Source of the DNA: a virus | Direction: 5' to 3' (one strand) | Length of the DNA stretch: 37,403 nucleotides | Virus record (IMG/VR): IMGVR_UViG_3300032286_001388 | Location: 1 to 37,403 of that record | Shown: positions 5,954-35,600 of the stretch, piece after piece | Layout: each line of letters starts with the position of its first letter | Position numbering within the stretch: position 1 is the stretch's first letter | The notes under the pieces: model-generated | The model's database searches: none | Told to the model about the DNA's origin: nothing | The model's input: the letters and a program-made list of their open reading frames with translations, nothing else | Program-made: the position numbers and the translations under genes

Positions 5954-6385
5954 CTAGGTGCTTAATTTGCGGATATGGCTACCATGCACACGCACTTGAA
6001 TGTGTCCATTGTACCAGTCATCCGACTCTAATACACGTCTTGAGAATTGTTCGCGAGCTTCTATGTAACTACATTCAGCCTTGGACCTACAGTAGTATAA
6101 GATTTCGCGAGTGAAGTTGCCTGCGCCTAAGCGTTCTACGTCTTTGTTGAGTTGTTCGTTGCTGCCGTAGTATGTCTGCCAATCTGATTCGATTTTGCCA
6201 CGTATCTTCTTGCGTTTCTTTTTGCCGTTCTTGAGTTTCACTGTCTTGTATGTGGTTCTACTAAATTTTGCTAATTTTTTTCCAATATACTTCCTGCCGG
6301 TTAAGTTATTTGTGATCAAATAAACAAAACCCACGCAGTCTTCGGGTAACACTTCAATAGTTTTGCTTTCGAATAGCCATGACAT
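5954..6385 (-). CDS. GIY-YIG-type endonuclease, free-standing
   Basis: A 143-residue protein whose first half carries a GIY-YIG-like fold: VYL at 21-23 and YIG at 33-35 within GFVYLITNNLTGRKYIGKKL, then a lysine-rich insertion (KLKNGKKKRKKIRGK), SDWQTYYGSN, and EAREQF, which includes a candidate catalytic Glu. It would cut one or both DNA strands as a homing or restriction-like nuclease. Near-identical architecture is common as a free-standing ORF in marine T4-like phages. It is the last gene of the minus-strand operon, 21 bases after radical SAM 1, with a weak ribosome site. The proposed structured RNA follows its stop. It may be a homing enzyme (Seg-like) or part of an intron; a role in recombination or phage exclusion is possible but unproven. 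Confidence 0.8.
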   Translation of the reverse strand: MSWLFESKTIEVLPEDCVGFVYLITNNLTGRKYIGKKLAKFSRTTYKTVKLKNGKKKRKKIRGKIESDWQTYYGSNEQLNKDVERLGAGNFTREILYYCRSKAECSYIEAREQFSRRVLESDDWYNGHIQVRVHGSHIRKLST

Positions 6386-6406: not shown

Positions 6407-7282
6407 TCATGCCGCCGGAAATAATTCTATTTCTCTCTGCCACTGATCCAAAAACGCAGTTTTGTTCCGAGTCGTGGCACAGGCACTGGCGCACACCGGA
6501 TTGGGTTGATCAGTGCGCCAGGTCAATCTAACGGTTTTTAAATCATCGGTGACATGATCTCGTTGACGACTGCCCAGCCAACAACAGGCACTGACCCGTC
6601 CCTGAGCATCCATGTACATGCTTCGTTCTTGTTGGGCCTGGCACTGTATCTTGGTTGTTGTGGCCTGCGGCAGTTGCCATCCTATGGGAGCTTGTAGTCT
6701 GTCAGTGAATCCACGCTTGCTGACCTTGGCACGGAACCACCCAAAACCCATGTCACGGGCCAGTTGTTCGCAAGCATCCACTTGATGTTGATTGTGTTTG
6801 TAGACCAGCATGTCCCAGTGGGCATGCCCCCCGGCAGCAATGAATGCCTCTGCATTGGCCATGAGTTTTTTCCAATCAACATTTTTTCTGTACACAGAGT
6901 TGGTGTCTTCAAGTCCGTCTATGCTGAACACACAGTAGTCTTGGGCTTGATTCAACAGGCCACCCAAAGCATGCCAAAAAAACGTGCTCTGCACACCACC
7001 ATTGGTGTTCATGCCCAGCACGATGTCAGGATTGATCTTCCTGAAATATCGGTAAATGTCCATGGTGTAGTAACCCGCAGCTGGATCACCGTAGTTGCCG
7101 CACATGAACATCTTGTCCAAGTTGCCAATCACACGATCGCTAAAGTGTTGTTGTATGTGTTCCACACGCAGGTGATGCTTGAGATCCTTCCTGAAGTCCG
7201 GATCTGTTTCTCTGGCACACATGGCACACGCAGCCTGACAAACGTCTGTGGGTTCAATGTGTAAGACTCGGATTCTACGCAA
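6407..7282 (-). CDS. Radical SAM enzyme with C-terminal SPASM-like cysteine domain (radical SAM 1)
   Basis: This 291-residue enzyme should bind a [4Fe-4S] cluster and S-adenosylmethionine through C15, C19 and C22 (VCQAACAMC) and make the 5'-deoxyadenosyl radical. The core continues with CGNYGDP near 61-67, the counterpart of the GGE motif, and SIDG at 120-123. C214, C233, C234, C264 and C268 near the C terminus form a C, CC, C-x3-C set typical of SPASM/twitch auxiliary clusters, which often mark enzymes acting on peptides or proteins. The start is a TTG overlapping the gp46 stop by eight bases; no ATG occurs before the catalytic cysteines, so TTG is favoured and translation is probably coupled. 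The substrate is unknown, and I see no obvious precursor peptide nearby. Confidence 0.88.
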   Translation of the reverse strand: MRRIRVLHIEPTDVCQAACAMCARETDPDFRKDLKHHLRVEHIQQHFSDRVIGNLDKMFMCGNYGDPAAGYYTMDIYRYFRKINPDIVLGMNTNGGVQSTFFWHALGGLLNQAQDYCVFSIDGLEDTNSVYRKNVDWKKLMANAEAFIAAGGHAHWDMLVYKHNQHQVDACEQLARDMGFGWFRAKVSKRGFTDRLQAPIGWQLPQATTTKIQCQAQQERSMYMDAQGRVSACCWLGSRQRDHVTDDLKTVRLTWRTDQPNPVCASACATTRNKTAFLDQWQREIELFPAA

Positions 7283-9041
7283 TTTCTATGTCCGTGTTGT
7301 AGCTGGTAAAGCCGCCTTCCTTGACCACTCGGAGTATGTTCTCCACACGTCCACTGAGTTCATCTCTGTGACTGACCAACCATATACTCTTGTGGCGTTC
7401 GCGGCTCATGTGTTTGAGCAAGGCCAGGCTGTTTTCTACACCCTGTGTGTCCAGACCCGAGTCAATCATCTCGTCTATGAACAGGACATTGATGGGCTGA
7501 TATAGACTTTCAAACACGTCGCGGAAGGCCCAACTCATGCTCAGGATCAACCTGTTGCGTTCACCTCGCGAAAGATTGTCAAAGTCCAGTTCTCGACCCA
7601 GCTCTTCAATCGAAACTGTGAGATCATTCTGGAACACCACAGTGTGTGGCAAGCCAATCCTGTCTAGATAGTGTGTGAGTCGGGCGTTGAGATAACTCAA
7701 GTTCTGTTCTATGATCTTCTTGCGTATGAATGAATCTTTGCTGGTCAATAGCTTGAGCAAGAAGTCTTGATGTTCTTGCAATCGTGTAAGTTCGTTCAGC
7801 GTGTCATACGTGACCACTTGCAGAGCTTGCCCTTGCATGTCCGCTATCTGCTCACCGTAGGGATCGGTCTCTGCGGTCTTGTCTGCCAACTGTTTTTCTA
7901 ATGCCGACAGGCTGCTCCTATGATCAATGGCATCCTCTTCCGCATCATAGAACATGGTCGGGGGTCGACCTAGCGTGCCCAAGGCTGTGTGGGCAATCTC
8001 AAGTTCTGATAAGAGCTGTGTATGTTCCTGGCACGCTTCTCGCGCTCGCTCCAGATCAGTCTGCTTACCCGCCAGGACCTGTTGGTGCTTATGGTCGTGG
8101 AAAGCCTGCCCGCAGGTGTGACATGTGTGACTTTCAAGAGTCGCAATCTCCTTGCCAAGCTTCTCAATGCTTTTGTTCTCGCGGTCCTTATCAAGCTTCG
8201 TGCGGGAGATCTGTCCAGCCAGGTCGTTAAGGTCCTTGCGTTTCTGATCCCATACTTTGTGTGCCTTGTGGGCCTGTATCTCGGCTTCAATGTCAATCTT
8301 CTTGAGCTCTTCGAGCGCGGTTTCAAGTTTTTTAATCTCTTCTTCATGCTTGGTCGTCCATAATGTTTGCCTGCGTCGCAGGGCTTCAATCTGTTCTTCT
8401 ATGCGTTTGTTGGCTTCTTGCACAGCACGTATGCGGAATTCTTCCTGCTGTATGGCTTCTTTGGTTTGTCTGTTGTGTTCTTTGATACGATCGGCACGCT
8501 CGCTCAGCATGGTTATGCCCAAGAGCTGTTCGATGATTGTGCGTTGATCATTGGCCTTCAAACTCAAGAATGGTTCTGTATAGGTGTTGAGCGCCAGGAT
8601 GTGTTTGAACATGTCATGGCTGAGTCCCAGCACCGATTCTATGGCATCCTGTGTTTCTCTCGAATCGCCTTGTGCTTCGTCGGTGATTTCCTGTTCTTTG
8701 TTGTTGACATAAAACTTGAGCACATTGGGCTTACGTCCACGTTCGATCTTGTACTCCTGTGATCCTACTATGAACTCCAGGCTGACCAGCATGTTTTTGC
8801 CATTGGTCTTGTTGACCAAGTTGTCTTTGCGTATGTTTGAAAGTGCCAGACCGTACAAGGCATAACTGAGTGCATTGATGATTGTGGTCTTGCCGGTGCC
8901 GTTGCGGCTGCCGTCACCGCCCAAATCAAGATTTTCTCCCAGGACCAAAGTGAGATCTCTGCGATCAAAATCAACTGCCTGTGTGGCGTTGCCCACACTC
9001 ATAAAATTTTTCACAGTTAAAGTTTTTACAACAATACTCAA
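7275..9041 (-). CDS. gp46: Recombination endonuclease large subunit, T4 gp46 (Rad50/SbcC-like)
   Basis: The 588-residue protein has the SMC/Rad50 layout. An N-terminal ATPase half has a Walker A motif in SRNGTGKTT (about 45-53), followed by coiled coil (about 180-300). A zinc hook CHTC at 307-310 sits at the apex, a return coil follows, and a C-terminal half holds the signature LSRGERNRL (490-498) and Walker B VLFIDE (519-524). With gp47 it forms the nuclease that resects DNA ends for recombination-dependent replication and host DNA breakdown. The start is TTG at 9039-9041, chosen because AAGGA (minus strand, 9049-9053) sits seven bases upstream and MSIVVKTLTVKNFMSVG is the expected N terminus. 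In T4 gene 47 and gene 46 are close neighbours; here a radical SAM gene separates them. Confidence 0.95.
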   Translation of the reverse strand: MSIVVKTLTVKNFMSVGNATQAVDFDRRDLTLVLGENLDLGGDGSRNGTGKTTIINALSYALYGLALSNIRKDNLVNKTNGKNMLVSLEFIVGSQEYKIERGRKPNVLKFYVNNKEQEITDEAQGDSRETQDAIESVLGLSHDMFKHILALNTYTEPFLSLKANDQRTIIEQLLGITMLSERADRIKEHNRQTKEAIQQEEFRIRAVQEANKRIEEQIEALRRRQTLWTTKHEEEIKKLETALEELKKIDIEAEIQAHKAHKVWDQKRKDLNDLAGQISRTKLDKDRENKSIEKLGKEIATLESHTCHTCGQAFHDHKHQQVLAGKQTDLERAREACQEHTQLLSELEIAHTALGTLGRPPTMFYDAEEDAIDHRSSLSALEKQLADKTAETDPYGEQIADMQGQALQVVTYDTLNELTRLQEHQDFLLKLLTSKDSFIRKKIIEQNLSYLNARLTHYLDRIGLPHTVVFQNDLTVSIEELGRELDFDNLSRGERNRLILSMSWAFRDVFESLYQPINVLFIDEMIDSGLDTQGVENSLALLKHMSRERHKSIWLVSHRDELSGRVENILRVVKEGGFTSYNTDIEIA

Positions 9042-9048
9042 TTTATGT

Positions 9049-9053
9049 TCCTT
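9049..9053 (-). promoter_or_regulatory. Ribosome binding site fixing the gp46 TTG start
   Basis: AAGGA on the minus strand, seven bases before TTG at 9041. There is no ATG until residue 14 of the frame, which would remove the first beta strand of the ATPase, so this site supports the TTG start. Confidence 0.6.
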
Positions 9054-9065
9054 GTTGACTTGTTA

Positions 9066-10583
9066 TTATACTACAACGTTTCTGTATTTGTCTAGTACAG
9101 GCACGTGATCAATCAGTTTCATATTGCGCGAATGATCCAAACGATCATTGGTTTCAAAAAATTGCTTCAGTGACATTGGATCTGGCCCAGCATGAGTGGA
9201 AAAGTATTCCAACAAAGTATTGATACGATCACGGAATATTTTTCCTGCATTTTTGTAACACTTGGTCTCTACCACTCGTTCCAATGAATCAACAACCGAT
9301 TGCGCATCTGGAAATACAAATGGACTCATGTGCTTGGGATTTTCCACGAAATCCCAGTCGGCTATGACTCCCGGAAAATGCTGGTCCATGAATTCAAAAA
9401 TAGTGTGCAAGGCATGAACATTGTAGATGGAAATGGTTGTGTGAGTACTGAACAATATTTTTTGGGCTTTTAGATACTTCATGTTTTCCACAATGCTGGG
9501 CCAATGACTCGGATATCTGATGTAGTGATTGAGGTGGCCGATGCCGTCTATGCTGATGATAAAGTTAACATTGGAAAAATGCTGTAGTAAACTTTTGAAT
9601 TTGTCGCTGAATCGGTTGGCATTTGATGTGATGCTGATTTCAAAATCTGTGCGTGCTAGGTTTATGCAACGCTGTAAAAATTCATAAAATTCAATCATGA
9701 TGGAAGGCTCGCCGCCGGCCACCGACAGTTTTTGCACAGTGTCAAGATCTACCACATCAAATCCAACATAGTGTTTGGGAGCCCCCATGAGTCGGGCTCC
9801 GGTCCATTCGATGCCCAGTTGTTGATATTCTTTGTCGATGAGATGGCTGTCATCTGGATTGCACATGCGGCACTGTAGATTACAGCGATTGCTAGGACGT
9901 ATGTCATAGTAAGCTGGTTGTTTTAGATTGATCAGATCTTGCACAGTTTGAATGTCCAGTCGTTGGGCCCACTCGGTGATTTCGGTCTGGCGCGGACTCA
10001 TCATACCAGCAGCTTCCTGTCGATAACAAAATCCACAGTGTTCTGGAACACGCACACCATCCAACATTTTTTGTCTGAGATCTTGATAGTTTTTGTCAGA
10101 ATGCCAGTCCTGATAGTCTTTGATTTTGGTTATGACCCGAGAGCTCCTACAACACGTGGCGGTGCCGTCTGAAAATGTATACAACTGCACAAACGGAAAC
10201 ACACAGAAACTAGGATTTTCACGAACCAGATTTTCAAACATGGTGTGGATCTTGATCAGTTCAGGGTCAACGAAATGCCCACGGTTTCCAGCAGATTTGA
10301 CTGCGGCAATGGTGTTGTTGAAAGCATAGGGATGTGACCATTCTTTTTTGGGTTGATCTAGCATGATCACACGATCAAACTGTTGCAACAGATCGGTCAA
10401 TCTACCCGGTTCCAGATCATACACCGTGGTATGATAAAAGCCTGGTTGAGAATAATGATAGTCTTCCAACACATCTTCTAGTTCGCTCAACAGGCCATGA
10501 CACGGCAGGCCATAAGACAGGGCCAATTCTCGTGTTTTTGTATCTGTATCCTCGGTGTTGTTACCGAGACAAAGTATCTTCAT
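9066..10583 (-). CDS. Radical SAM protein with N-terminal twitch-like cysteine domain (radical SAM 2)
   Basis: A 505-residue protein. The catalytic [4Fe-4S] motif is C234, C238, C241 (RCNLQCRMC), followed by AGGEPS (GGEP at 290-293), ITSNANR and SIDG, giving a complete radical SAM core over about 225-450. Ahead of it, C127, C144, C145, C183 and C186 form a C, CC, C-x2-C set resembling a twitch/SPASM auxiliary cluster domain but placed before the core. Residues 1-110 have no recognised fold. Proteins of this architecture (twitch-domain radical SAM) recur in marine T4-like phages without known function. The ATG directly abuts the gp47 stop (TAAATG), so the two are almost certainly co-translated; gp46 follows after 24 bases. 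The substrate is probably a peptide or protein by analogy with SPASM enzymes, which is inference. Confidence 0.88.
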   Translation of the reverse strand: MKILCLGNNTEDTDTKTRELALSYGLPCHGLLSELEDVLEDYHYSQPGFYHTTVYDLEPGRLTDLLQQFDRVIMLDQPKKEWSHPYAFNNTIAAVKSAGNRGHFVDPELIKIHTMFENLVRENPSFCVFPFVQLYTFSDGTATCCRSSRVITKIKDYQDWHSDKNYQDLRQKMLDGVRVPEHCGFCYRQEAAGMMSPRQTEITEWAQRLDIQTVQDLINLKQPAYYDIRPSNRCNLQCRMCNPDDSHLIDKEYQQLGIEWTGARLMGAPKHYVGFDVVDLDTVQKLSVAGGEPSIMIEFYEFLQRCINLARTDFEISITSNANRFSDKFKSLLQHFSNVNFIISIDGIGHLNHYIRYPSHWPSIVENMKYLKAQKILFSTHTTISIYNVHALHTIFEFMDQHFPGVIADWDFVENPKHMSPFVFPDAQSVVDSLERVVETKCYKNAGKIFRDRINTLLEYFSTHAGPDPMSLKQFFETNDRLDHSRNMKLIDHVPVLDKYRNVVV

Positions 10584-11600
10584 TTACAGTGTTTGATAAA
10601 TTTTCAACAACAGCTTGGGATCGTAGAATTCGCTTTCAATATTGGTGAGTTGATCAGTGACGATTTGATCCACGCTCTCAAACTTGATTTCGCCTGGAGC
10701 CATGTCTGCATCCACCGAATTGTTTTTCACTGGTATCAGGGCCATTTCTCGCAGGCTATAATCTTTGACAAAAGTGTCCTTGATAAATCCAGCCTCTTCG
10801 TAGCTGATGTCAATGTCCAGTTCCACACGCACATGCATGTTCTTACGGAAAACTGTTTTTCCATGGTCTATGGCTTCGCTGAGTTTCATTACTCTATACA
10901 AAGGTTGCCCGGGCCAGGCATGGTATTCTGGATCCTGACCCCATTCCAGTATCATCATGCCTCGTTTGTCATCGCCGGCATCGGCAAAGTTGTGAGGAAA
11001 GCAGTTACCAATGTAATTGATATTTTTCTTTTGCTGTCGCAGGTGGAAGTGTCCAGAAAACACACTTTCAAATCCACCAAAGTTGTCGACCTGTATCTCG
11101 CCGTGATCGGGCATTTCTACCATGGCATTCATCTTGAAATGCGGCAGTTCAAAGTGCCCAAACATGTACTTGGCCGACATGCGTTGTATCTTTTTGTGAT
11201 CGTCGCCGACCAGCCATGGCGCAATGATCACATCGCCCGACTGGAACCAGTCGTTGCACACATGTATGTTGGGCAAGTGTTGTGCCCATTCTGCACCGTG
11301 TATGTCACGTTTGTCTCTGTAGTAGAGATCGTGATTGCCGGGAATAAAATAGAAATTGTCAAAGGCCGCACTCAGCCTTTCCAAACTGCGAAGGCTGAAG
11401 TGCAAGGTCTGTAAGTTGATGGCCGCACGCTGATGATGCCAATCGCCCAGAAACATACCGGTCTCGCAACCATGCTCTTTTGCAGTGGCAATGAACCAGT
11501 CGATGAAATCCGAACAGTCTTGATTGTGCATGAGACTGTTTGATTTCAGTCCAAAATGTATGTCTGTGCAGACTGCAGTCTTGCGGAATAGATTAGTCAT
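10584..11600 (-). CDS. gp47: Recombination endonuclease small subunit, T4 gp47 (Mre11/SbcD-like)
   Basis: A metallophosphatase-fold nuclease, the catalytic partner of gp46. Numbered from the preferred start MTNLFRKTAV, metal-binding motifs are D13/H15 (TDIHFG), D53 (GDWHH), GNHD at 88-91, a GHFE motif, and a GHFH motif further on. The frame is open six codons further to an ATG at 11618, which would overlap radical SAM 3 by 11 bases. I prefer ATG at 11598-11600 because the family normally starts only a few residues before the first beta strand. Neither start has a clear Shine-Dalgarno, consistent with coupling to the gene above. It acts in the cytoplasm on double-stranded DNA ends. The assignment is secure. 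Confidence 0.94.
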   Translation of the reverse strand: MTNLFRKTAVCTDIHFGLKSNSLMHNQDCSDFIDWFIATAKEHGCETGMFLGDWHHQRAAINLQTLHFSLRSLERLSAAFDNFYFIPGNHDLYYRDKRDIHGAEWAQHLPNIHVCNDWFQSGDVIIAPWLVGDDHKKIQRMSAKYMFGHFELPHFKMNAMVEMPDHGEIQVDNFGGFESVFSGHFHLRQQKKNINYIGNCFPHNFADAGDDKRGMMILEWGQDPEYHAWPGQPLYRVMKLSEAIDHGKTVFRKNMHVRVELDIDISYEEAGFIKDTFVKDYSLREMALIPVKNNSVDADMAPGEIKFESVDQIVTDQLTNIESEFYDPKLLLKIYQTL

Positions 11601-11607
11601 TGAATGA

Positions 11608-13152
11608 TTATAACACAAAGCCCATGGCTTGTGCGATCTCTTTGTGAGTCAAAACAAAACTTTGGCCGCGAACCGTGTCTAACTCCTGCATGCGGCGGCA
11701 GAATTCCTGTCCATCACCGGTGCGTGCTTGTTGAACCTGCTGGATAACATAGGCCAATCTGTCTGGATCTGGCACAATGGCCCGGGTCAATCTACCCAAA
11801 ACCAGCTGTTGCGCCTGTGCAGTGAGTTGATCTATGCTGAGATAGTCAGGATCATGCAACAGATTGAAGTAGTAATGATCTATACCTTGTTGATCCAACC
11901 AGATCAACAGCTCCGGCAAATACAACACATTCTGGATGTTGACAGTGATACACACCCCAATGTGTAGATTTTTTGATCGATCGCGAGCGGCCAAAAATCT
12001 GGACAAGTTAGTGGTCACAGTAGACCATCGTGCGCCGGCACGTTGTAACTCAAATCTAGAACCCATGTCATCTATGCTGATGGTCACGGTCAATCTCTGG
12101 AAACAGTCAGCCCGATCAAAAATCTCGGGATACTGTGTGCCGTTGGTAACAAATTCAAATATGGCTCGAGAACTATTGCCCGAATCTATCAGCCACTGCA
12201 TGAAGTCTAGATTTTCCTGCAACAACAACGGCTCTCCGCCCAAGAACTCAAAGTTACAGACTGTGTGGGCTTGCTCACGTAGATTTTTCCAAAACAGTTC
12301 ACTGTTGCCGTGCCAGCGGTTGTCTGACAACAAGGCATAGTTGACATGGGTCCTGGCAGGATCGTGGATATTTTTTAGTTGTTCGGCAGCTATGCTGCTG
12401 CTAAACACAGGACTGCAAATCCTGCAACGCAGATTGCAAAGATTACCCAAATGGCCGCCCACAAATTGAACTGGCGGAGAATCAGATTCCCAATCTATGC
12501 CGGCATAGATATTTTTTAATTTATAAGGTGCCAGATGTTGTTTGCTTTCTCCGCCGGCCTTGTGTGCTCGGGCACAGGTCTGGCACCCCGGAGGCCACAG
12601 ACCTTGTCTAAACTGATCTCTCAAGCTCTTCATATGGTCGCTGGTCAGTATTTGTTCCATGCTGTGAGTGCGAATGTTGGTTGCTGGTACAGTGTCGTGA
12701 TATTCGCAACAAGGACCCACAGCACCACTGGGCCACACATGTAATCCAGCCCAGGCATGAGCGCACATGGTATTTTTGCCATTGAACACAGGAGTGGTGC
12801 GACGTATGGGCAAAAAGTGCGCCACACCATAACCTACCTGTTGGACTGTGACCGGGTTGGGCTGGGTTGTGAACCACTCGGCAGTGCGAGTCTGGTTGGT
12901 TACTACCAATACAAATGCCGGGCTGATGTCTAGATAATCAATCAACCAAGTCACATGTTCCAGTATTGGTTGTTCCACTGGTCTAAAGTTCAACAACACA
13001 AATCTCTGATCAGACAAATATTCTGTGGATAGATGTGGTTGCCAGCGGCGATACAATGTGCCGCTGGCTTGACATTCTAAATCTTCCAACCATGTCAAAC
13101 AAGTCACACTGTGGGTTTGTTCTAGTGTGTGTCTAAGTTCAACAAACTGCAT
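11608..13152 (-). CDS. Radical SAM protein with N-terminal twitch-like cysteine domain (radical SAM 3)
   Basis: A 514-residue protein. The radical SAM motif is C239, C243, C246 (LCNLRCRIC), with LGGEPL (GGEP 305-308), VTNGTQ and SIDD downstream. The auxiliary cysteines C130, C148, C149, C190 and C193 precede the core with spacings 17, 0, 40 and 2, close to those of radical SAM 2 (16, 0, 37, 2), so the two look like diverged paralogues. The first 110 residues are unlike those of radical SAM 2 and unrecognised. The ATG overlaps the gp55 stop by one base (TAATG) and gp47 follows, so it is embedded between late-transcription and recombination genes. Probably a peptide- or protein-modifying enzyme; a nucleotide or lipid substrate cannot be excluded. 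Confidence 0.88.
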   Translation of the reverse strand: MQFVELRHTLEQTHSVTCLTWLEDLECQASGTLYRRWQPHLSTEYLSDQRFVLLNFRPVEQPILEHVTWLIDYLDISPAFVLVVTNQTRTAEWFTTQPNPVTVQQVGYGVAHFLPIRRTTPVFNGKNTMCAHAWAGLHVWPSGAVGPCCEYHDTVPATNIRTHSMEQILTSDHMKSLRDQFRQGLWPPGCQTCARAHKAGGESKQHLAPYKLKNIYAGIDWESDSPPVQFVGGHLGNLCNLRCRICSPVFSSSIAAEQLKNIHDPARTHVNYALLSDNRWHGNSELFWKNLREQAHTVCNFEFLGGEPLLLQENLDFMQWLIDSGNSSRAIFEFVTNGTQYPEIFDRADCFQRLTVTISIDDMGSRFELQRAGARWSTVTTNLSRFLAARDRSKNLHIGVCITVNIQNVLYLPELLIWLDQQGIDHYYFNLLHDPDYLSIDQLTAQAQQLVLGRLTRAIVPDPDRLAYVIQQVQQARTGDGQEFCRRMQELDTVRGQSFVLTHKEIAQAMGFVL

Positions 13153-14069
13153 TAATCTTCTAGTATTATGGTGACTTCACCAGGTGCTTGTGCCAGATTC
13201 TTGCGCCCGGCATTTTGTCGAGTCCATGACGGATTCAGTCCGGCCTGTTCCAGCATGTCGTCTCTGATGTTTTGATTTTTCTTTTCTAGATTGAGAATCC
13301 TGGTAAACGAATTGGTAATGGCCGCTGTGTAGTAGGCAAAAGGATTTTGACTCTTTGACTCATCAAACTGCAGACCAATCTGACTCAACTGTAGTAGAGC
13401 TTGTCCACGCATTTCTTCATTGTAGGTATAGCCACGCCAGTTAGAGCGTGTGGCATAGCGTTCGCACAGTTTCATAAACATGGTGGCCAACTTGCGTGTC
13501 ATGGTGCCGTGATCCTTGCTGAACTCACCGTGTTCGAGATCGCCCTGCCAGTGACTTTTGCCCACAAGGAATGGTTGTCGGTTGGCATCTATGCGATAGT
13601 GATAAAACGGCGGAAAGTTCAAACGTATGTGTTTGGGATCCAGCACAGGTACCTCCAACAATTCGGCCAAGGGATCATCTTCTTCATCCAATAATTCAAA
13701 TTCAAAAATATCTTTGATTTTTTTCTTTTTGTTAGTGACCTTGGAAACTTTTTTGGGCGCCATGGGTATGTGTTCCCAGCAGGTTATGCGGAACACTAGA
13801 TCAGTGTTGGGTATCTTTTTTGGATCCACTATGACACCTTCGCGTTTGAACCGGTCCGCACGATTCCTGCGTGCTTCAGCTATGGTGCGTTGATTGATTT
13901 TTAACAACGTGGGCAGGATGATATCGTACTGATGATCCTGCACAGGATCACGATAGACGCAGTAGGTATTTTTGCTGAGGTGTATTTCTTTCAAGATATC
14001 TCTGTTGTTGAGATAGTTCACACGTGGTGCTGTTTTTGGTATTGCTGATATAGAGGCAGTGACTGACAC
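13152..14069 (-). CDS. gp55: Late-transcription sigma factor, T4 gp55 family
   Basis: A 305-residue protein. The C-terminal part has a sigma region 2-like segment, SQNPFAYYTAAITNSFTRIL (240-259), followed by NLEKKNQNIRDDMLE, as in gp55, which directs host RNA polymerase to TATAAATA late promoters. It is longer than T4 gp55 (185 residues); the extra is an N-terminal part with a lysine-rich stretch (VSKVTNKKKKIKD, 108-120) followed by an acidic one. The C terminus (EVTIILED) is hydrophobic and acidic, as expected for a sliding-clamp contact. The start is GTG at 14067-14069, supported by AGGAG at 14080-14084; no ATG is available nearby. It heads the minus-strand operon and is preceded by its own late-type box, suggesting autoregulation late in infection. 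Confidence 0.9.
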   Translation of the reverse strand: MSVTASISAIPKTAPRVNYLNNRDILKEIHLSKNTYCVYRDPVQDHQYDIILPTLLKINQRTIAEARRNRADRFKREGVIVDPKKIPNTDLVFRITCWEHIPMAPKKVSKVTNKKKKIKDIFEFELLDEEDDPLAELLEVPVLDPKHIRLNFPPFYHYRIDANRQPFLVGKSHWQGDLEHGEFSKDHGTMTRKLATMFMKLCERYATRSNWRGYTYNEEMRGQALLQLSQIGLQFDESKSQNPFAYYTAAITNSFTRILNLEKKNQNIRDDMLEQAGLNPSWTRQNAGRKNLAQAPGEVTIILED

Positions 14070-14088: not shown

Positions 14089-14099
14089 GTGTATTTATT
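14089..14099 (-). promoter_or_regulatory. Late-promoter-like box upstream of gp55
   Basis: Minus strand AATAAATACAC, containing ATAAATA. The AGGAG ribosome site and GTG start follow within 30 bases, so this would give a short-leader transcript for the gp55-to-GIY-YIG operon. An early promoter for this operon is expected but not recognisable. Confidence 0.6.
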
Positions 14100-14114
14100 T
14101 TAACACAAAACCAA

Positions 14115-14127
14115 CGGTTGTCAACCG
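14115..14127. other. Short palindrome between divergent late promoters
   Basis: CGGTTGTCAACCG is a perfect 13-base inverted repeat (six-base arms around one T) in the 113-base divergent gap between gp55 and the baseplate operon. It could be a protein-binding site for co-regulation of the two operons, or chance. It is unlikely to be a terminator, since no T run follows on either strand. Confidence 0.3.
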
Positions 14128-26200: not shown

Positions 26201-26646
26201 CTGGTCTTCAAACTTACAAGATGATCAGTGACAACGTGATAGTCAACAGCGTAGAATTTAAACCCTTGTTTGGCGCCCTGGCTGCCGAAGAACTGCGAGC
26301 CACCATCAAGGTCATACGTGCTGCCAACAGCACGGCCAGTATCAGCGAAATCAAGAACTTGGTAGTGGCCAACATGGATGCCTATTTCAGCATTGACAAA
26401 TGGAACTTTGGGGATACATTTTATTTTTCAGAGCTGGCTGCATATCTACATTCACAAATTGGCGACATAGTCAGTAGCGTGGTCTTGGTTCCGTTGAATC
26501 AACAAAAATTCTTTGGCGACCTATATGAAATAAGATCCGCACCCAACCAGATATTTGTCAATGCGGCCACGGTCAACAACATTGAAGTAATCCAGGCCCT
26601 GACCAGCACCAATCTACGCACAGCACCCGGTAGTGGAGTAATCTGA
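23227..26646 (+). CDS. gp6: Baseplate wedge protein, T4 gp6 family, enlarged
   Basis: A 1139-residue protein. The first 450 residues contain classic gp6 blocks: TLRKSFVDYLRLYYPETFND, SEFIALLDVMAFMGQSLAFR, NTRENYIDTAERRDSVVKLA and, near 415-435, NEIKQRAPARYYTQNRMVNG. gp6 forms the iris-like ring of the baseplate that opens during contraction. T4 gp6 has 660 residues, so roughly 480 are extra, mostly in the middle and C-terminal half. A DSDGDGVPDNPD loop near residues 819-830 looks like a thrombospondin type 3 calcium site. The C-terminal part (EELRATIKVIRAANSTASIS, then YFSELAAYLHSQIGDIVSSV) again matches the gp6 end, so the extra material is inserted rather than appended. The ATG follows a weak ribosome site. 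Confidence 0.93.
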   Translation: MARTTRQTAIFGVEDWKRIYQTYREADFQSYDFETLRKSFVDYLRLYYPETFNDYIESSEFIALLDVMAFMGQSLAFRTDLNTRENYIDTAERRDSVVKLANLVSYTPKRNTCASGYLKVFSVTTSENVIDYNGVNLANVTVNWADPTNFDWQEQFTAIVNASLVDTQRVGRPGARNTVLGIRTDEYTVNLVPGYLPVIPYTATVDGVNMPFEAVNSSVAVVDANTKFVYEPSPLPNARFNVLFRNDELGFASANTGYFFLFKQGVLQNQDFNLPERISNREVNINIEGINNTDRWLYQLDNIGNVAAEWQFTDSVYGAAIEQLSPSIRNLYSVTSRTNDQITLNFGDGVFSAIPVGLFRCYVRASNGLQYIINPEEMQSVVIPISYVSRTGQIETITFTCGITEPVSNAQARETLNEIKQRAPARYYTQNRMVNGEDYTNFPFTQYNSIIKSSALNRASIGTSRYLDLVDGTGKYSSTNIFSSDGALYEANNLPSFSFSWLTENDITGVISNQIEPNLVRSGSLQFYYANFPRPNLIPLDCIWQESTTLANETTGYFANSSGTPLSLGTYASNNTKYIVVGSLVKFVPPAGYFFNASNQLVAGVPIRAEEKLVLWASPAAIYLDGTNNGQGNFNNGQGPVVLNDYIPTGAIATQVIPLFVTDLNSTIRQSIVDQVRLNRNFGLGYNNLTATWYVITSTNLDTDATFSLTNAQSTAGINDDASWLVQAVTDGERYTVSSRSLDYYFGSVLETRFFFYSGQQIYDSRTGTTVRDFINVLKTNSRPDSNMPLQGDTRLRIIGQPVQSDGYVDDFQVLVGFEDSDGDGVPDNPDFFDEIVAPEVDSNLKLVFLQSTVDFDNLQRYLLVEPGVVNSDYATLDDIELVKQSYVDGQVFYAYDQASFYSLTVNLNTGVRTLVARSDFIARVGRQSLYFQYRHNSPLTSRLDPGSTNIIDLYVVTLEYYTAYQNWIKDSTGTVQEPIPPSINQLTTDYAGLQTYKMISDNVIVNSVEFKPLFGALAAEELRATIKVIRAANSTASISEIKNLVVANMDAYFSIDKWNFGDTFYFSELAAYLHSQIGDIVSSVVLVPLNQQKFFGDLYEIRSAPNQIFVNAATVNNIEVIQALTSTNLRTAPGSGVI

Positions 26647-29600
26647 TGGCCCGTGTCCGCTCGGTTGATTTTTTACCTGAAATATTCCAAACTCCAGTAA
26701 ACAAACAGTTTTTGGCAGCCACTCTGGATCAGCTGATCCAAGAGCCTGCTTTTCAAAAAACCCAAGGCTTTGTGGGACGCAGAGTTGGACCCGGAGTCAA
26801 TGCCAATGACAGGTATGTGATTGAGCCCACCAAATCTCGCAATGAATATCAGTTGGAACCGGGTGTCGTTGGCATCGAACCCGAAAGTACCAAAATACAA
26901 GATGTCATCACTTATCCAGGCATTGGAGATGCCTTGGCTCTGCAAGGGGCTTTCACAAACAATGCTGACAGATTATACACCAGCGAATACTATGCCTGGG
27001 ATCCTTTTGTTGACTTTGACAAGTTTGTAAACTATCAACAGTATTATTGGTTGCCCAATGGTCCTCTAGAAGTAGACGTATCTGCCACAGAAATTCCGCT
27101 CACTGACAACTATGTGGTGACCAGAGCCAATGGTGTTTACACCTTCAGTGGAGTGGCCGGAGACAATCCACAACTTACCTTGGCACGTGGTGGAACTTAT
27201 ACGTTCCAGGTAGCTCAAAATAACAAAGAAACAGTCAACTATCGTGTGACCAATGCAGGTATATCGGCCTATGTAATTGATTATGAAAACAATCCTACAC
27301 TTACCCTGGTGCGTGGTAACACATACATATTCAATCTTTCCTTGAATGGTATTTTTCCCTTTTATATAAAAACACAGGCCAGTCTAGGAAATGTCAACAC
27401 CTATGACACCGGAGTCACCAACAACGGCGCCACCGCAGGCACCGTCACATTTGTAGTGCCGCAAGATGCACCAAATGTGTTATATTACAGCTCATCCACG
27501 CAGTTCAACATGCGCGGTACTATCAACATCATAGATGCCGTTGCTGGTACTGGACCGGGTTTTTGGATACAGGCCAGCCCGGGTGTGAATGGTCGTTTGC
27601 CAGTTACTCCAAATATCAGTTCAAGAGATGTGCTGGGAGTAACCAACAATGGAGAAGACCTAGGCACTGTCACATTCAATGTGCCATCAAGCACAGCACA
27701 AGAATTTTATTACACACTGCCCGATCTAGGACCGGTGAGTTTGATTACCGATCTTGAATTTGATCAGATCAACGGGCAACCAGTCAGCACTTTTATCAAT
27801 ACCTACAACGGTATTGATGACATTTCCGATCTCAACGGTCGCACCTTGGTTTTTCAATACACCGCCAACGGATGGGGTGTAGTTCCCCCAGAAGATCGTT
27901 ACAACATATGGCGGATAACTTATGTCACAGTGCTGAACATTGAGTATATCCAGCTGGTAAATTTTACGCCAGTCAACAATCTTGAAAAATTTAAAATACA
28001 GTATGGTACGGTCTATGCCAGCACCAGTTGGTATAAAACAAACCAAGGAATTTTCCAACAGATACCGTTGCTGACAGCGGTACAAGATGTCCTGTACTAT
28101 CAAGATGCAACAGATCCAGAAATTTTTGGAATCATTAGATTGGTTGATCAACAAGCAGGCATTGAAGACAGCACTCTTGTTACGCAAACCAATCCGGTTC
28201 TCAACATAGATAGTATACTGGGCAAGAAAAATTATACCTCGCCAAATGGGGTAATATTCACCAATGGACTCAAGGTCATTTTCCGAGGTGTGGTAGAACC
28301 ATCCAGTTATACCAATAATGCTTATTATGTAGAAGGAGTGGGCATAGCCATCCAACTGTTGCCTGTGACAGATTTTGTCGTGCCGGAACCATATGTGGAC
28401 GAAGAATTTGTGTTGTTAAATTTTGAAGACAGCACTCTTGTTGCGCCACCCAAACCTGATTATATAACTATCAATCGTGCCAGTCCAGATCTAAATCCCT
28501 GGAGTCGAAGCAATCGATGGTTCCACGTAGATGTGATCAACTACAGCTATGAACAAAACAACACAGTGCCTGTACTGGATAATTTGTCGCGTGGTCGTCG
28601 CCCTATCTTGGAGTTCCAGGCCGGAACCAAGTTATATGATTTTGGCACACAGGGCAAGCAACCTATTAATATCATAGATTTTCAAATCACAGATGCTCTC
28701 AGCAACATCAATGGCACCATTGGATATGGTATAGATGGTTACAATTTTGTCCAAGGCACTCGAGTAATATTTGCCGCCGATACCAACCCAAACGTGAGAA
28801 ACAAAATCTATGAAGTAGAGTTCATAACTCCTGACACCATACCGCCCTTGATCACGCAACCCATTATTAATCTTGTGCCGGCTGCTGATGCCGACGTATT
28901 ATTGAATCAATCCACTGTGTGTTTGAGCGGTAACACCTTGCGTGGTGAGTCATTTTACTATGACGGTGTGACCTGGATACGGGCACAAGAAAAATACGCA
29001 GTCAATCAGGCACCGTTGTTTGATGTCTATGACGGTGCCGGAATCAGTTTTGGAAACAGGGCCAAATATCCCAGTTCAACATTTGTAGGCAGCAAGCTAT
29101 TGAGTTATGCCAACGGGTCCGGTGCTCCTGATCCGGTGTTGGGATATGCATTGAAATACCTTAATCTCAGCAACATCGGTGACATAGTTTTTGACAACAA
29201 TCTATACACAGACACTTTTATATATGTGACCAATAATGTCAGCACAACCAACCCGGTCAGCGACGGACACATCCGCCGGTATTCTAATCGTGTAGATTTT
29301 TCTAGAGAAATAGGTTGGCAAACTGCCGTGACTCCCAGTCTGGTACGACAACAGTTTAGATTCAGCTACGATGGTCTGCCGTTCAAACTCGACATAGCCG
29401 TGGCAACAAACAATGTTGTTCCTGCTGTGCAGATGTTTATCAACGATCAGTTTATCAGCATTGACAAATATACCGTGCAGGTCACAGGATCTGTTACCAC
29501 GGTCACTTTGGTAGACACTTATGTAATCGGAGACATCATTGAACTAGATGTGCTCAGTGATCAGGTATCTTCACAAGGTTTTTATGTGGTACCAATCAAT

Positions 29601-32600
29601 CTTGAAAACAATCCACTCAATGCCAACAGCCCGAACTTTACCTTGGGCACGGTGCGCAGCCATTACAACAGCATAGGAGAAAACCTCCTGGCCCTGCAAG
29701 GGCCCATCAATGGAGCCAACAACACCCGCGACCTTGGCAATATTGTGCCGTATGGTCTGCAGATCCTACAACAAAGCTCTCCACTGACACTGGCAGGATA
29801 TTTTGCAAGAAATCTTGAATATGATATCTATGGTGCCATCGAATACAACAGCAGAGAATATATCAAGTACAAGAATCTGTTGCTGCAAACAGTGATACAA
29901 AATGATTATACCAATCTTTCGGTGTCTGAAACACTGGACCGTGCCATATCCTACATCACGCAAGGTCGCACGGATATCAATCCATTCTATTGGAGCGATA
30001 TGTTGGCCAGCAATCCGATCTATACCCAGACCCTGACAGAAATCACACCCATCACAGTCAATGTGTTTGACACAGTGCAATCCTATGATTTTACCAGTGC
30101 CAATTTCAAAGCCTTGTTGGTCTATTTCACCCGGGGCGAAGACACAGTATTGCTGACACGCAACATTGATTACACAGTCAGCACCGAAGGACCTACTATC
30201 ACAGTGATACTACCTCTGCAGACTGGTGACATCATTGACATCAGAGAGTACAGCAACACAGCCGGAAACTTCTGCCCCAACACACCTACTAAAATGGGAT
30301 TGTATCCCAAATATCTGCCCCGAATATTTGTGGACACTGGCTATTTGACTCCAACCACGGTCATACAAGGGCATGATGGTAGTATCACGGTGGCCTTTGG
30401 TGACATAAGAGATCAGGTGTTGTTGGAGTTTGAAAAGCGCATCTACGACAATCTCAAAACCGATGACAACCCCATACCACTCACGGCCGAAGATGTCATA
30501 CCCGGAGCATTCAGAACCACTGACTATTCTCTCACTGAAATAACCACCATACTAGGCCAGAGCTTTTTGAGTTGGGTTGGGTGGAACAAGTTAGATTACA
30601 AAACACAGGATTACATAGCCGCCAACGCATTTACTTGGAACTACAGCAGCAGCGGCAGCAAGTTGACCAATGGGTCGATCAATAATCTGTCAGAAAGCAA
30701 TCTATTGGGTGCCTGGCGGGGTATCTATCGTTATTTCTATGATACCACTAGTCCAGATACTAGCCCCTGGGAAATGCTGGGATTTACCGAACAGCCGGCG
30801 TGGTGGGAAACCAGATACGGTCCTGCGCCTTATACCAGCGATAACTTGGTGCTGTGGGATGATCTTGAACTAGGACTGGTAGCAGATCCTGTAGCACCAT
30901 ACATACGTCCTAACTATGCACGTCCGGGCCTGACCAAAGTGATACCAGTGGGCACTGAAGGACAACTGTTGCCTCCATCACTGTCAGTGATGGGACAGAC
31001 CGATCCTACCAGCTATGTCAAGAGCTGGGTAGTGGGCGACGGCGGCCCAGTAGAATACAGTTGGTCCGCGTCAAGCAGTTATCCATTTGCGATCATGCGC
31101 TTGCTGGCACTCACACGTCCAGCAGAATTTTTCAGTTTGTTTGCCGACAGAGACCTTTACAAGTTTAACGCAGAGTATGGACAGTATCTATACAATGATC
31201 GTTATAGACTTGATGCCAGTGGTATACAGATCTACGGTAGCCTGGATACCAGAATCAGCAATAATGAAACCATTACAGGAGTTAGCAAAGCCAGCTATAT
31301 CAACTGGATCGTGGATTACAATCAACAACTGGGCAAAAACAGCACGATTGCGTTGACCGTTGCCTTGCAAAATCTAGATGTACGGCTTTGCTATAGAATG
31401 GCCAGTTTTACCAACAAACAATATTTAAAGATTTACACAGAAAAAAGCAGCCCCAACAGTCAAAATTCAAGTTTGTTGTTGCCAGATGAAAGTTACAATC
31501 TGTTGTTGTATAAAAATCAACCTTTTGCAGACATAACTTACAGTGCAGTCATTGTGGAACGTGTGTCCACAGGATATGCAGTGTATGGCTACAGCAATAG
31601 CCAACCTTATTTCAACATCTATGCCAGTGCCAGCAATGGGTTGCTGCAAACAGTCAGCGGTGGCGGAGCCTCGGTACGAGTGCCCGCACAATATACTTCC
31701 ACAGTGGTTCAGATTCCTTACGGATATGTGTTGACCAACACCGCCATGGTGGTTGATTTTATACTCAGTTATGGCGCATATCTGACCAGTCTTGGACTCA
31801 TATTCGATGATCGCTACAACGGATATGAGCTCAACTGGAACCAAATGGCCCAGGAGTTTTTGTATTTTAGCCAGCAGGGCTGGAACACCGGTACATTGAT
31901 CAATCTCAATCCCAGTGCCACCAAAATCACAGCTTATCGCGCAGGTGCAGTGGTTGATATCATCGAAAGCCTGACTCCTGAAAACATGTTGTTGGATCAA
32001 AATCGCACAACCTTTCCCACCAGGGATCTGATCATACAGCGTGAAGGCAACACATTCAGCGCCACCAGCACAAACAATCAGACCATAAGCTATCTCAAAC
32101 TGCGTTTCGTAAACTATGAACACATGGTGGTGCTAGACAATGTCAGTATATTTGCCGACCTACTGTATGATCCTGTGACCTCGGCCCGACAGTATCGTGT
32201 CAGAATCATTGGTGCCACCACCACCGATTGGAATGGGCAACTTGATGCACAAGGATTTATACTAAACAATGACAACGTGCAAGAATGGCAATCTAATCGC
32301 AAATATACCAAGGGCGACATAGTACTGTACAAGAACACTTACTGGTCGGCACAGACCATAGTACAACCCAAGCGCCTGTTTGACTACAATGACTGGGTCA
32401 AGTCAGACTATCAGCTCATACAACAAGGTCTGTTGCCCAACATAGCCAACAAGGCCGATCAGTTGGCCAACAGTTATAATACCTATGGTGCCAATCTTGA
32501 AAGAGACAATGACCTGCTCAGTTACGGTTTGATTGGATTCAGACCCAGACAGTACATGACTTCGTTGAATCTAGACGATGTCAGCCAGGTCAATATCTAT

Positions 32601-35600
32601 CAACAGTTCCTGGGCACCAAAGGTACCACCAGAGCTGCCGAACTCTTTACACGTGCCGATCTTGGCAAAGAAAGTGGCGAATATAAAATCTATGAAAACT
32701 GGGCAGTGCTGGCCGGCACCTACGGAGCCAATGCTAACCGTAGCTTTTTTGAACTCAGACTCAACGAAGATCGACTGCAAAGCAATCCCAGCACAATACA
32801 GCTAGTATTACCGCAACAACCCAGCGACGCTGACCAAACGTTTTTACTTTCCGACATCTGGAGAGAAAGTTACAAGATCACATCTACAGATGTGTTGCCT
32901 ACCACCAATGAATTCAATGGAGATGCAGCCCTGCCCAGTGCAGGTTATGTCAACATAAACGACATTGATATAACCGTGTTTAGTTTGGATGATCCGGCCA
33001 CCCTGGCACAAAACATAGAATCCATTGGTAGAGGTACCTTGATCTGGGTGGCCAAAGTCAACAGTTATGATTGGAACGTTTACAGATGTGAACGAGTCAC
33101 GGGCGTGATAACACAACTCACTGATAACCTCAATGAAACCAGTGTGGCCACGTTCAACGCTGCACACGGATTATCTGTGGGTGACCTAATAATCATTAGA
33201 TATTTCAACGATTCGATCAATGGCGTTTACCGAGTATTGTCAATACCGGGAATACAACAGATTGTCATAGCATTTAACTTTGGCAATACAAATCAAACTG
33301 TGATCACAGGCACGGGCCTGGCATTTTATCTGCAAACCGCTCGTGTGGTCCAAGCCAGCGATGTGGTAAATCTACCTTACAGCAAAGAATTAGTTCCCGG
33401 AGCCAAGGTCTGGGTCGATGACAACGGGCAGGGACAGTGGACTGTGTTGCAAAAACAAAATCCATTCACAATATTTGATAGACTGTTGACAGATCCATTG
33501 GTTCCAAACTCACGCTACGGTTACAGTATAACGCAAAGCAATGACAATTTTGCTGCTATAGTGGGTGCCCCGGATGTCAACAACGGTGCAGGCAGCCTGT
33601 ATGCCTATCGCAGAAACATCATCAACAACTATGAGTTCAACATCGAGTTGACCTTGGATGCCATTGATGTAGTAGGCCTGGGCAATGCCGTGGCATTTGG
33701 TAATTTGACTTGGAGTGTTGCAGGAGCCAGTGCCAGCAGATCCGGCACCGGATATGCCTTGGTATTGTATCTTGTGCCTGGTTCAAACGATTATATATAT
33801 TCTCAACTGTTGCTGGCGCCAGATCAGAATTTTGCACCCACTGGATTCGGCACTGACGTAGCTATAAGCACCAATGAACGTTGGATGTATATCAGTGCTC
33901 CGGGCGCAGATCGCGTGTATGCTTATGCCTTGATTGAGGTAGAAACACAGACCTCGGTTTATTTGACTGATGGTATTACCAATACTTTCAACTACAGCAA
34001 CAACATACAAATTGATCCTGCTTATCCAGAACAACTGACAGTGGCATTGGAAAATCTAATCAATGGTATCAATGTTGATTTGACCTTTGCTGTGAACTAC
34101 AGTATCACGGCTACAGATGTTGTACTCAACACCACACCATCGGCCGGCCTGAGATTGACCATAACCCGACGCAAGGCCGTTGCCTTAGACGACGAAACCT
34201 ACTATGGTGTATTTCCAAATCTCGCAACTGGATCGGGTTTGAATGCCGCCTTTACTGTGAACGTCAAACGTGGAGTGTATTTTCCTACCCTGTTGGTAGC
34301 CGGTGTTGGCTATAACATAGGAGACACACTGACCATATTCGGCACAGTGATAGGTGGACTAACTCCGGCCAATGATTTGGTAATCACTGTGACATCCACA
34401 AGTGGTTCCGGGGCTATAGTATCTTTCTCCCAAACAGGTTCTGGCATAGGAACACAGACAGATTTTAGCTTGACTCCATTTCTTTACACAGCCACCAACA
34501 TTGAATCTTTTACGGTCATAGTAAATGGACAACTACAAAGGCCCCACATTGATTATGAATTTAACAATGACAGCAACCTAATCACACAAGATCTTACATT
34601 TTTGACTGTGCCACCGGTGGGCGCTACTATCAGTGTGAGAGCCAGTGATTATTGGCAGTATGTTAGCACACTCACACCACCCGGATCGGTGGTCAATGCC
34701 GACTACGGAGCCAGTATAACCACCTCTACCGACGGTAGACAGATACTCATTGGAGCTCCCCGCGCCGATGCAGTCGGTGTCAGTCGTGCTGGCACGGTTT
34801 ATGCCTACGATCGAAGTGTATACAGGTTTCTGGTCACAGACACTTCGATACTGACCTATGTCATACCCGGAACATTTACCGAACCAGTTTTTGTCAGCCT
34901 TAACGATGTATTTTTAACCAATACCAATCAATATATAAATGGTCAGTTTTCTGTGGTGGGCAGTGATATCGTGTTGAGTTCTGCGGTGTCATTGACCGTG
35001 GGCGATGTGATAGAAATCGAAACCAATCAGTTCAATCTCATACAGACCATTTCTGCCCAAGAGCCCTTTGATGAATCTAGATTTGGCGCTGCCTTGCAAC
35101 TATGCAACACCGACTGCAGCCTGTATACTGGCAGTCCATTAGCCAGTGTGGATCATCCTCAAGAAGGTCTGGTGCAACGCAATGTAAATCAAAGCCGGGT
35201 GTATGGGGTCATTACCAGCACAATAGCCAATCCTGCTCTCACTGCTGGCAACACACTCAGGATCAACAATACATTGGTCACTGTACCTGTGTCTCCCAAC
35301 AATACCATAGCTGGTCTGGTCGATGCTATCAATACCGCGGCCATACCCAATGTCATAGCATCTTCCACACCCAACCTTGAACTGCCAGGCGATGGCATTA
35401 CCAAAATTTTTGATGTTGGTAGTATCTACAGTGCGGCAGAATCTTATACGGTGCTGGTCTACGTTGATGACACTGCGCAGGTAGAGAATGTCAACTATAC
35501 CTATAACAGCATCACACAACAAATTATTTTTATAGTGGCACCCGGATTTGGACAAGTGATTACAGTGGTATCCGGCAGGATGGTCTTGAACACAGTCAAT

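Follow-up and report, generated by a model that had tools for sequence, protein, structure and literature searches.

Two related pelagimyophages were reported in 2020 to differ in a variable island by added cassettes of radical S-adenosylmethionine (SAM) enzyme genes (PMC7029224), and in 2017 a T4-like phage from the environment, TARA_ERS488813_N000010, was reported to have, besides an A-type carrier, 12 radical SAM genes (PMC5332604). Here we analyzed a virus contig of 37,403 bases, IMGVR_UViG_3300032286_001388 (the window), whose minus strand carries six open reading frames (ORFs) in the order gp55, rSAM3, gp47, rSAM2, gp46 and rSAM1, the three rSAM genes encoding radical SAM enzymes. By comparing this block with its relatives, we found that the gp55/gp47 and gp47/gp46 junctions, together with the junction between gp46 and a GIY-YIG gene, are three cargo slots, here named A, B and C, in a conserved jumbo-phage block, a conclusion that we regard as very likely.

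The row gp55-gp47-gp46-GIY-YIG is fixed across the related clade of jumbo phages. After near-identical contigs were dropped, 77 loci were scored, with cargo called by longest-ORF tiling and a home-made radical SAM profile and with cargo genes defined as those of at least 100 codons. Slot A was filled in 12/49 loci, slot B in 43/65 and slot C in 57/76, and the structural junctions nearby (g17845/g16400, g16400/g16099, g16099/g14183 and hub26/g4490) were filled in 0% of cases; some other gaps in the vicinity are variable too, such as the one from GIY-YIG to hub26. Whole cargo genes lie flush between a backbone stop and the next backbone start (or promoter), and 200 of the 201 share the orientation of the backbone. 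An empty slot B is in every case a 4-base overlap of gp47 and gp46. Conserved flanks and variable content among relatives are what is seen in hypervariable insertion regions of the T4-like type, and the block shows both. At an empty slot A, the 45-base gp55/gp47 junction of locus L127 (936-980) holds a terminator-like hairpin (GATGGGTCGCAAGACCCATC) followed by TTTA, and a promoter-like sequence comes next, before gp47.

A previous sequence-only reading of this stretch had taken the alternation of genes as a sign that the radical SAM enzymes are produced in equal amounts with gp55, gp47 and gp46 and share a target with them. The gene order and all five junctions that it gave were borne out exactly by the window sequence: TAATG at gp55/rSAM3, 7 bases (TCATTCA) at rSAM3/gp47, TAAATG at gp47/rSAM2, 24 bases at rSAM2/gp46 and an 8-base overlap (TTGCGTAG) at gp46/rSAM1. 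For gp47 we use the ATG at 11600, instead of the upstream TTG (11618) of the program-made ORF list. Radical SAM genes filled all three slots in 2 of the 48 loci with every slot readable, the window and L013, and a third such locus, L276, lies on a 344 kb contig recovered in a later search outside the 48. Independent shuffling of the slots predicts 0.63 triple loci against the 2 observed (P = 0.11), so this uncommon combination comes near to what slots filled independently would give. The alternation in the window is three filled slots side by side, a coincidence.

We then considered how far the radical SAM genes depend on their neighbors. Of 91 rSAM1 family members, 88 immediately follow gp46 and another two come one gene later. 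When slot labels (A, B, C or elsewhere) were mapped onto a quickly built tree for 162 radical SAM cores, in which some branches are long, 19 changes were needed, compared with 71 after shuffling; the close relatives of rSAM2 (5 tips, the starred clade of the tree) are all in slot B. Across the rSAM1 family, the median ratio of nonsynonymous to synonymous substitution rates (dN/dS) is 0.065 over 194 pairs, indicating strong purifying selection. Together, the selection and the placement indicate that these proteins are kept for a function and that the radical SAM lineages are loyal to a slot. The association proposed earlier therefore stands in that the genes are not scattered, but it is not obligate: all three slots are empty in 7 of the 48 loci, and dehydrogenases, epimerases and other cargo occupy the same positions. 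Moreover, L013 and L127, whose gp46 genes are 94.5% identical in nucleotide sequence, differ in that L013 has radical SAM genes in slots A and B and L127 has neither. In comparisons of close relatives, breakpoints lie no more than about 10 bases from a gene end, and the flanks are 86-97% identical.

The window gp46 shares about 53% identity with its counterpart in jumbo phage PA5oct and 79-93% with those of viral contigs of up to 344 kb. In PA5oct, gp55, gp47 and gp46 adjoin with no genes between them; in Phosso and Atu_ph07 other genes occupy the gaps. No radical SAM gene was found in the backbone gaps of these three phages or of about ten contigs outside the close clade, and a search with the Phosso gp46 reached three distant contigs only. 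Over the whole genome, PA5oct gave no radical SAM match and Phosso and Atu_ph07 gave four each.

The window also speaks to whether the block is a single late operon, as had been supposed. Sigma-70-like promoters precede gp55 and gp46, and a weaker extended -10 (TTTGTGTTATAAT) precedes gp47 (Table 1). All of these are consensus matches to sigma-70. A match of at least 10/12 before gp55 was present in 63 of 74 related loci (85%) and in 1% of random control segments, which makes timing by late transcription doubtful. Similarly, a sigma-70-like promoter before gp46 was found in 36% of loci with a filled slot B compared with 5% of those with an empty one, so that a filled slot often brings its own gp46 promoter, and stoichiometric co-production becomes doubtful as well. 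A search across the window for the T4-type late promoter TATAAATA found none, although the late promoter of this clade could differ in consensus. Instead of a single late operon, these matches suggest separate units that a host-type RNA polymerase would read, each with a radical SAM gene riding at its 3' end.

Table 1. Features of the block and its borders in the window.
Feature	Position	Strand	Evidence
Sigma-70-like promoter before gp55, TTGACA-16-TAAAAT, extended -10	14097..14124	-	11/12 consensus bases
gp55-like late sigma factor, backbone, left border of slot A	13152..14069	-	PHROG 12791, E 1.6e-72; same position in related loci
rSAM3, N_Twi radical SAM enzyme, slot A cargo	11608..13152	-	NF033640, 265.8 bits (cut-off 170)
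Possible extended -10 before gp47	11607..11612	-	Sequence; best full match 9/12
gp47-like SbcD nuclease subunit, backbone between slots A and B	10584..11600 (ATG start)	-	PHROG 100, E 1.9e-56
rSAM2, N_Twi radical SAM enzyme, slot B cargo	9066..10583	-	NF033640, 277.4 bits (cut-off 170)
Sigma-70-like promoter in 3' end of rSAM2, before gp46, TAGACA-18-TATAAT	9065..9094	-	11/12 consensus bases
gp46-like SbcC ATPase subunit, backbone between slots B and C	7275..9041	-	PHROG 77, E 1.1e-102
rSAM1, radical SAM enzyme, C-terminal twitch/SPASM-like cysteines, slot C cargo	6407..7282	-	PF04055, 30.3 bits
SegE-type GIY-YIG endonuclease-like gene, right border of slot C	5954..6385	-	PF19835, 112.8 bits; same position across related clade

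All three proteins carry the CX3CX2C motif for a [4Fe-4S] cluster, and alignments showed it to be invariant in 59 rSAM1 homologues and in 34 N_Twi homologues. Both rSAM2 and rSAM3 exceed the curated NCBIfam cut-off for N_Twi_rSAM. In rSAM3, the motif (C239, C243, C246), a GGEP sequence and five auxiliary-cluster cysteines are invariant, and the SPASM domain PF13186 scores 32.6 bits (cut-off 21.5). By contrast with these two, rSAM1 stays below the N_Twi_rSAM cut-off (32.6 versus 170 bits), passes that of Pfam Radical_SAM narrowly (29.5 bits) and is classed simply as a general radical SAM protein; its membership in the superfamily is nevertheless firm, because the cluster cysteines C15, C19 and C22 are invariant in the 59 homologues, as are C214, C233, C234, C264 and C268. 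AlphaFold models of rSAM1 and rSAM3, with a mean predicted local distance difference test score of 83 and 86, respectively, have the partial TIM-barrel core and match radical SAM structures. For rSAM1 the top match in the PDB was BlsE (7vob, E 1e-11), followed by SuiB, SkfB and anSME, with SpeY (7wzx) also matched; rSAM3 matched anSME, the sactipeptide maturase 5wgg and BlsE; and the N_Twi profile matched SkfB, BlsE and BtrN, the last in its twitch region. A PDB sequence search with rSAM1 gave no match. Among isolated phages, single-query searches returned nothing for rSAM1 and nothing close for rSAM2 or rSAM3, the matches lying at about 25% identity (38 Vibrio phages for rSAM2 and two for rSAM3), and single-sequence scans of viral contigs with rSAM2 and rSAM3 gave few relatives.

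A region of about 100 residues at the N-terminus is common to slot-B radical SAM proteins and to non-rSAM cargo of 180-420 residues (for example L011 8833-9990), and the N-terminus of rSAM3 aligns with slot-B radical SAM proteins in this region. This sharing suggests that domains may have been exchanged. One cargo protein of this kind, of 380 residues and not a radical SAM enzyme, looked like a glycosyltransferase by eye and was set aside, as neither family assignment nor search supported it.

Radical SAM genes account for 88 of the 201 cargo genes. The 148 non-rSAM cargo proteins include 10 short-chain dehydrogenases and 4 proteins of epimerase or GDP-mannose dehydratase type, and the other recognized families are 2-oxoglutarate-Fe oxygenases, a sulfotransferase, a methyltransferase, AMP-binding and Rieske enzymes. 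In two slot C cases the radical SAM protein is fused to a short-chain dehydrogenase (L103 9172-10866 and L162 6044-7810). A slot A cargo gene, L135 6096-6878, has a weak match to the ADP-ribosyltransferase family Tox-ART-HYE1 (19 bits, below the cut-off of 25).

The slots hold a small part of the radical SAM content of these phages. Counts for near-complete genomes of 317-344 kb, obtained from N_Twi and Pfam searches merged by hand, were 17 for G001, 14 for G002, 12 for G004, 13 for G013 and 22 for G014, of which 3, 0, 0, 2 and 3, respectively, lie inside the slots; each of the five genomes has two genes for A-type iron-sulfur (Fe-S) carriers. In addition, a second conserved operon has five tandem N_Twi radical SAM genes (L163 5353-13091, with equivalents in L169, L174, L175 and L177) and holds partner proteins without a recognized family; in L163 it is followed by a Nol-like carbamoyltransferase gene. 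Clustering is also found in bacteria, where 41 of 121 near neighbors of N_Twi genes are themselves radical SAM genes.

On balance, we lean towards the view that the block offers slots for swappable cargo, exchanged through the flanks, and that the radical SAM cargo consists of active tailoring enzymes. Cassettes would move from phage to phage through homologous recombination within the conserved genes on either side, and the borders and patchiness seen in related loci make such flank-driven exchange probable. Slot loyalty, patchy presence and sharp borders would all follow from recombination in shared flanks, which would leave the essential genes intact and hand the cargo a ready transcript. 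The radical SAM enzymes could use SAM radical chemistry and an auxiliary Fe-S cluster to oxidize, epimerize or otherwise tailor small molecules, working alongside the dehydrogenases, epimerases and transferases of the slots and the rest of the phage radical SAM set, with the two phage A-type carriers supplying Fe-S clusters. The likeliest substrates, named with less assurance, would be sugars or surface-glycan precursors. BlsE and BtrN, found among the profile and fold matches, both act on sugar-derived substrates, and these matches, taken with the types of cargo, favor tailoring of small molecules or sugars, with peptide maturation a less likely alternative. An accessory role for the slot enzymes in tailoring small molecules or glycans is, on sequence and model comparisons, a tentative assignment to which we give somewhat less than an even chance. 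More speculative still, and rather unlikely in its full extent, is the idea that the clade runs a radical SAM biosynthesis of its own, in which 12-22 enzymes, the five-gene operon, two carriers and three slots that swap end-tailoring enzymes would yield new modified sugars or metabolites during infection.

Several observations weigh against this view. Radical SAM genes in slot A occur only together with radical SAM genes in slot B (4/4; Fisher P 0.005, in a test that takes no account of the relatedness of loci), which is a departure from full independence of the slots. The case for homologous recombination draws on borders and patchiness. Most of the non-rSAM cargo has no recognized family in PHROGs or Pfam, so that the small-molecule reading rests on a minority, and no glycosyltransferase family was recognized among the slot cargo. 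Finally, the maturases of ribosomally synthesized and post-translationally modified peptides (RiPPs) SkfB and SuiB and a sulfatase maturase are also among the fold and profile matches, which thus point to more than one class of substrate.

These last matches, together with the SPASM/twitch architecture, are what speaks for an alternative in which the radical SAM proteins are RiPP-like or sulfatase-maturase-like enzymes acting on a host or phage polypeptide. We consider it unlikely: in the window, radical SAM genes occupy all but about 24 bases of the slots at most, which leaves no space there for a precursor-peptide gene, although one could be encoded elsewhere, and the co-resident dehydrogenases and sugar-type enzymes, as well as the rSAM-dehydrogenase fusions, would be atypical partners. 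Some phage base-modification pathways include radical SAM and carbamoyltransferase genes, and the carbamoyltransferase next to the main radical SAM operon of L163 fits such a role; if the enzymes modified phage nucleotides or DNA bases, shielding the genome from host defenses, their proximity to DNA-repair genes would be meaningful. However, no kinase and no base-hydroxymethylating or glycosylating DNA-modification gene was recognized in the slots, and an occurrence this patchy at one fixed position points to a role that is dispensable, so that this explanation appears quite improbable.

The functional module of the sequence-only reading, in which the radical SAM enzymes, made in equal amounts with gp55, gp47 and gp46, would modify a phage or host protein at the onset of late transcription and recombination, can point to tight junctions, co-orientation and the regular position of the rSAM1 family behind gp46. 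It is hard to reconcile with backbones that lack any insert, with unrelated cargo in the same slots, with distant phages that have the same backbone and no radical SAM gene, and with promoters of sigma-70 rather than late type. A shared target is equally unsupported, since most of the radical SAM genes of the near-complete relatives lie elsewhere in the genome, and we hold this explanation to be very unlikely. The same low standing applies to the proposal that the cargo is largely passive and that the GIY-YIG gene encodes a homing-type endonuclease driving co-conversion of adjacent genes. A SegE-type GIY-YIG gene does border slot C throughout the clade, but it is a fixed gene and not a mobile one, about 2.7 to 7 kb separate it from slots A and B in the window, and the catalytic residues of rSAM1 are invariant under strong purifying selection. 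Returning to swappable cargo in backbone slots, we infer that the radical SAM genes ride with gp46, gp47 and gp55 in position, not in function.

Elsewhere in the window, the plus strand has one uninterrupted reading frame, at least 3,586 codons long (26646-37403), that runs past the window end and overlaps by 1 base the stop of a preceding 1,139-codon ORF. It probably encodes a giant structural or fibre protein.

In summary, the locus shows where large phages, mostly aquatic, store swappable enzymes, namely at single-gene junctions within an essential transcription and recombination block. The radical SAM gene number of the relatives exceeds that of any phage that we found described in the open-licence literature, in which we found no account of a three-slot system or of 12-22 such genes per jumbo phage. 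As far as these sources go, radical SAM cassettes in T4-like variable islands had already been reported, and the system of slots and the number of radical SAM genes appear to be new. Close relatives with empty and filled slots provide ready-made natural comparisons, and the search for a first substrate has a compact and well-defined target in the rSAM1 family that follows gp46.

At the level of the proteins, rSAM2 and rSAM3 resemble the family N_Twi_rSAM (NF033640), for which we found no established function, in scoring far above its cut-off and in having twitch-type cysteines on the N-terminal side of the radical SAM core; unlike that family, each has about 120 additional residues that form a further N-terminal domain. 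BlsE (7vob), BtrN (4m7s) and SpeY (7wzx), which act on sugar-like substrates, are matched by the rSAM1 model or the N_Twi profile, with identity below 20% and a TM-score of about 0.6 or lower, a likeness of fold. At the level of the genome, the abundance of radical SAM and Fe-S assembly genes in one T4-like phage recalls TARA_ERS488813_N000010 (PMC5332604), against which the relatives studied here have 12-22 radical SAM genes and two A-type carriers each. With the pelagimyophages (PMC7029224) the clade shares the pattern of related phages that differ by radical SAM cassettes in a variable region. Their cassettes, however, sit in a large host-recognition island between structural genes, whereas those described here occupy three single junctions among gp55, gp47, gp46 and GIY-YIG, with slot-specific radical SAM lineages and near-complete relatives of 317-344 kb.

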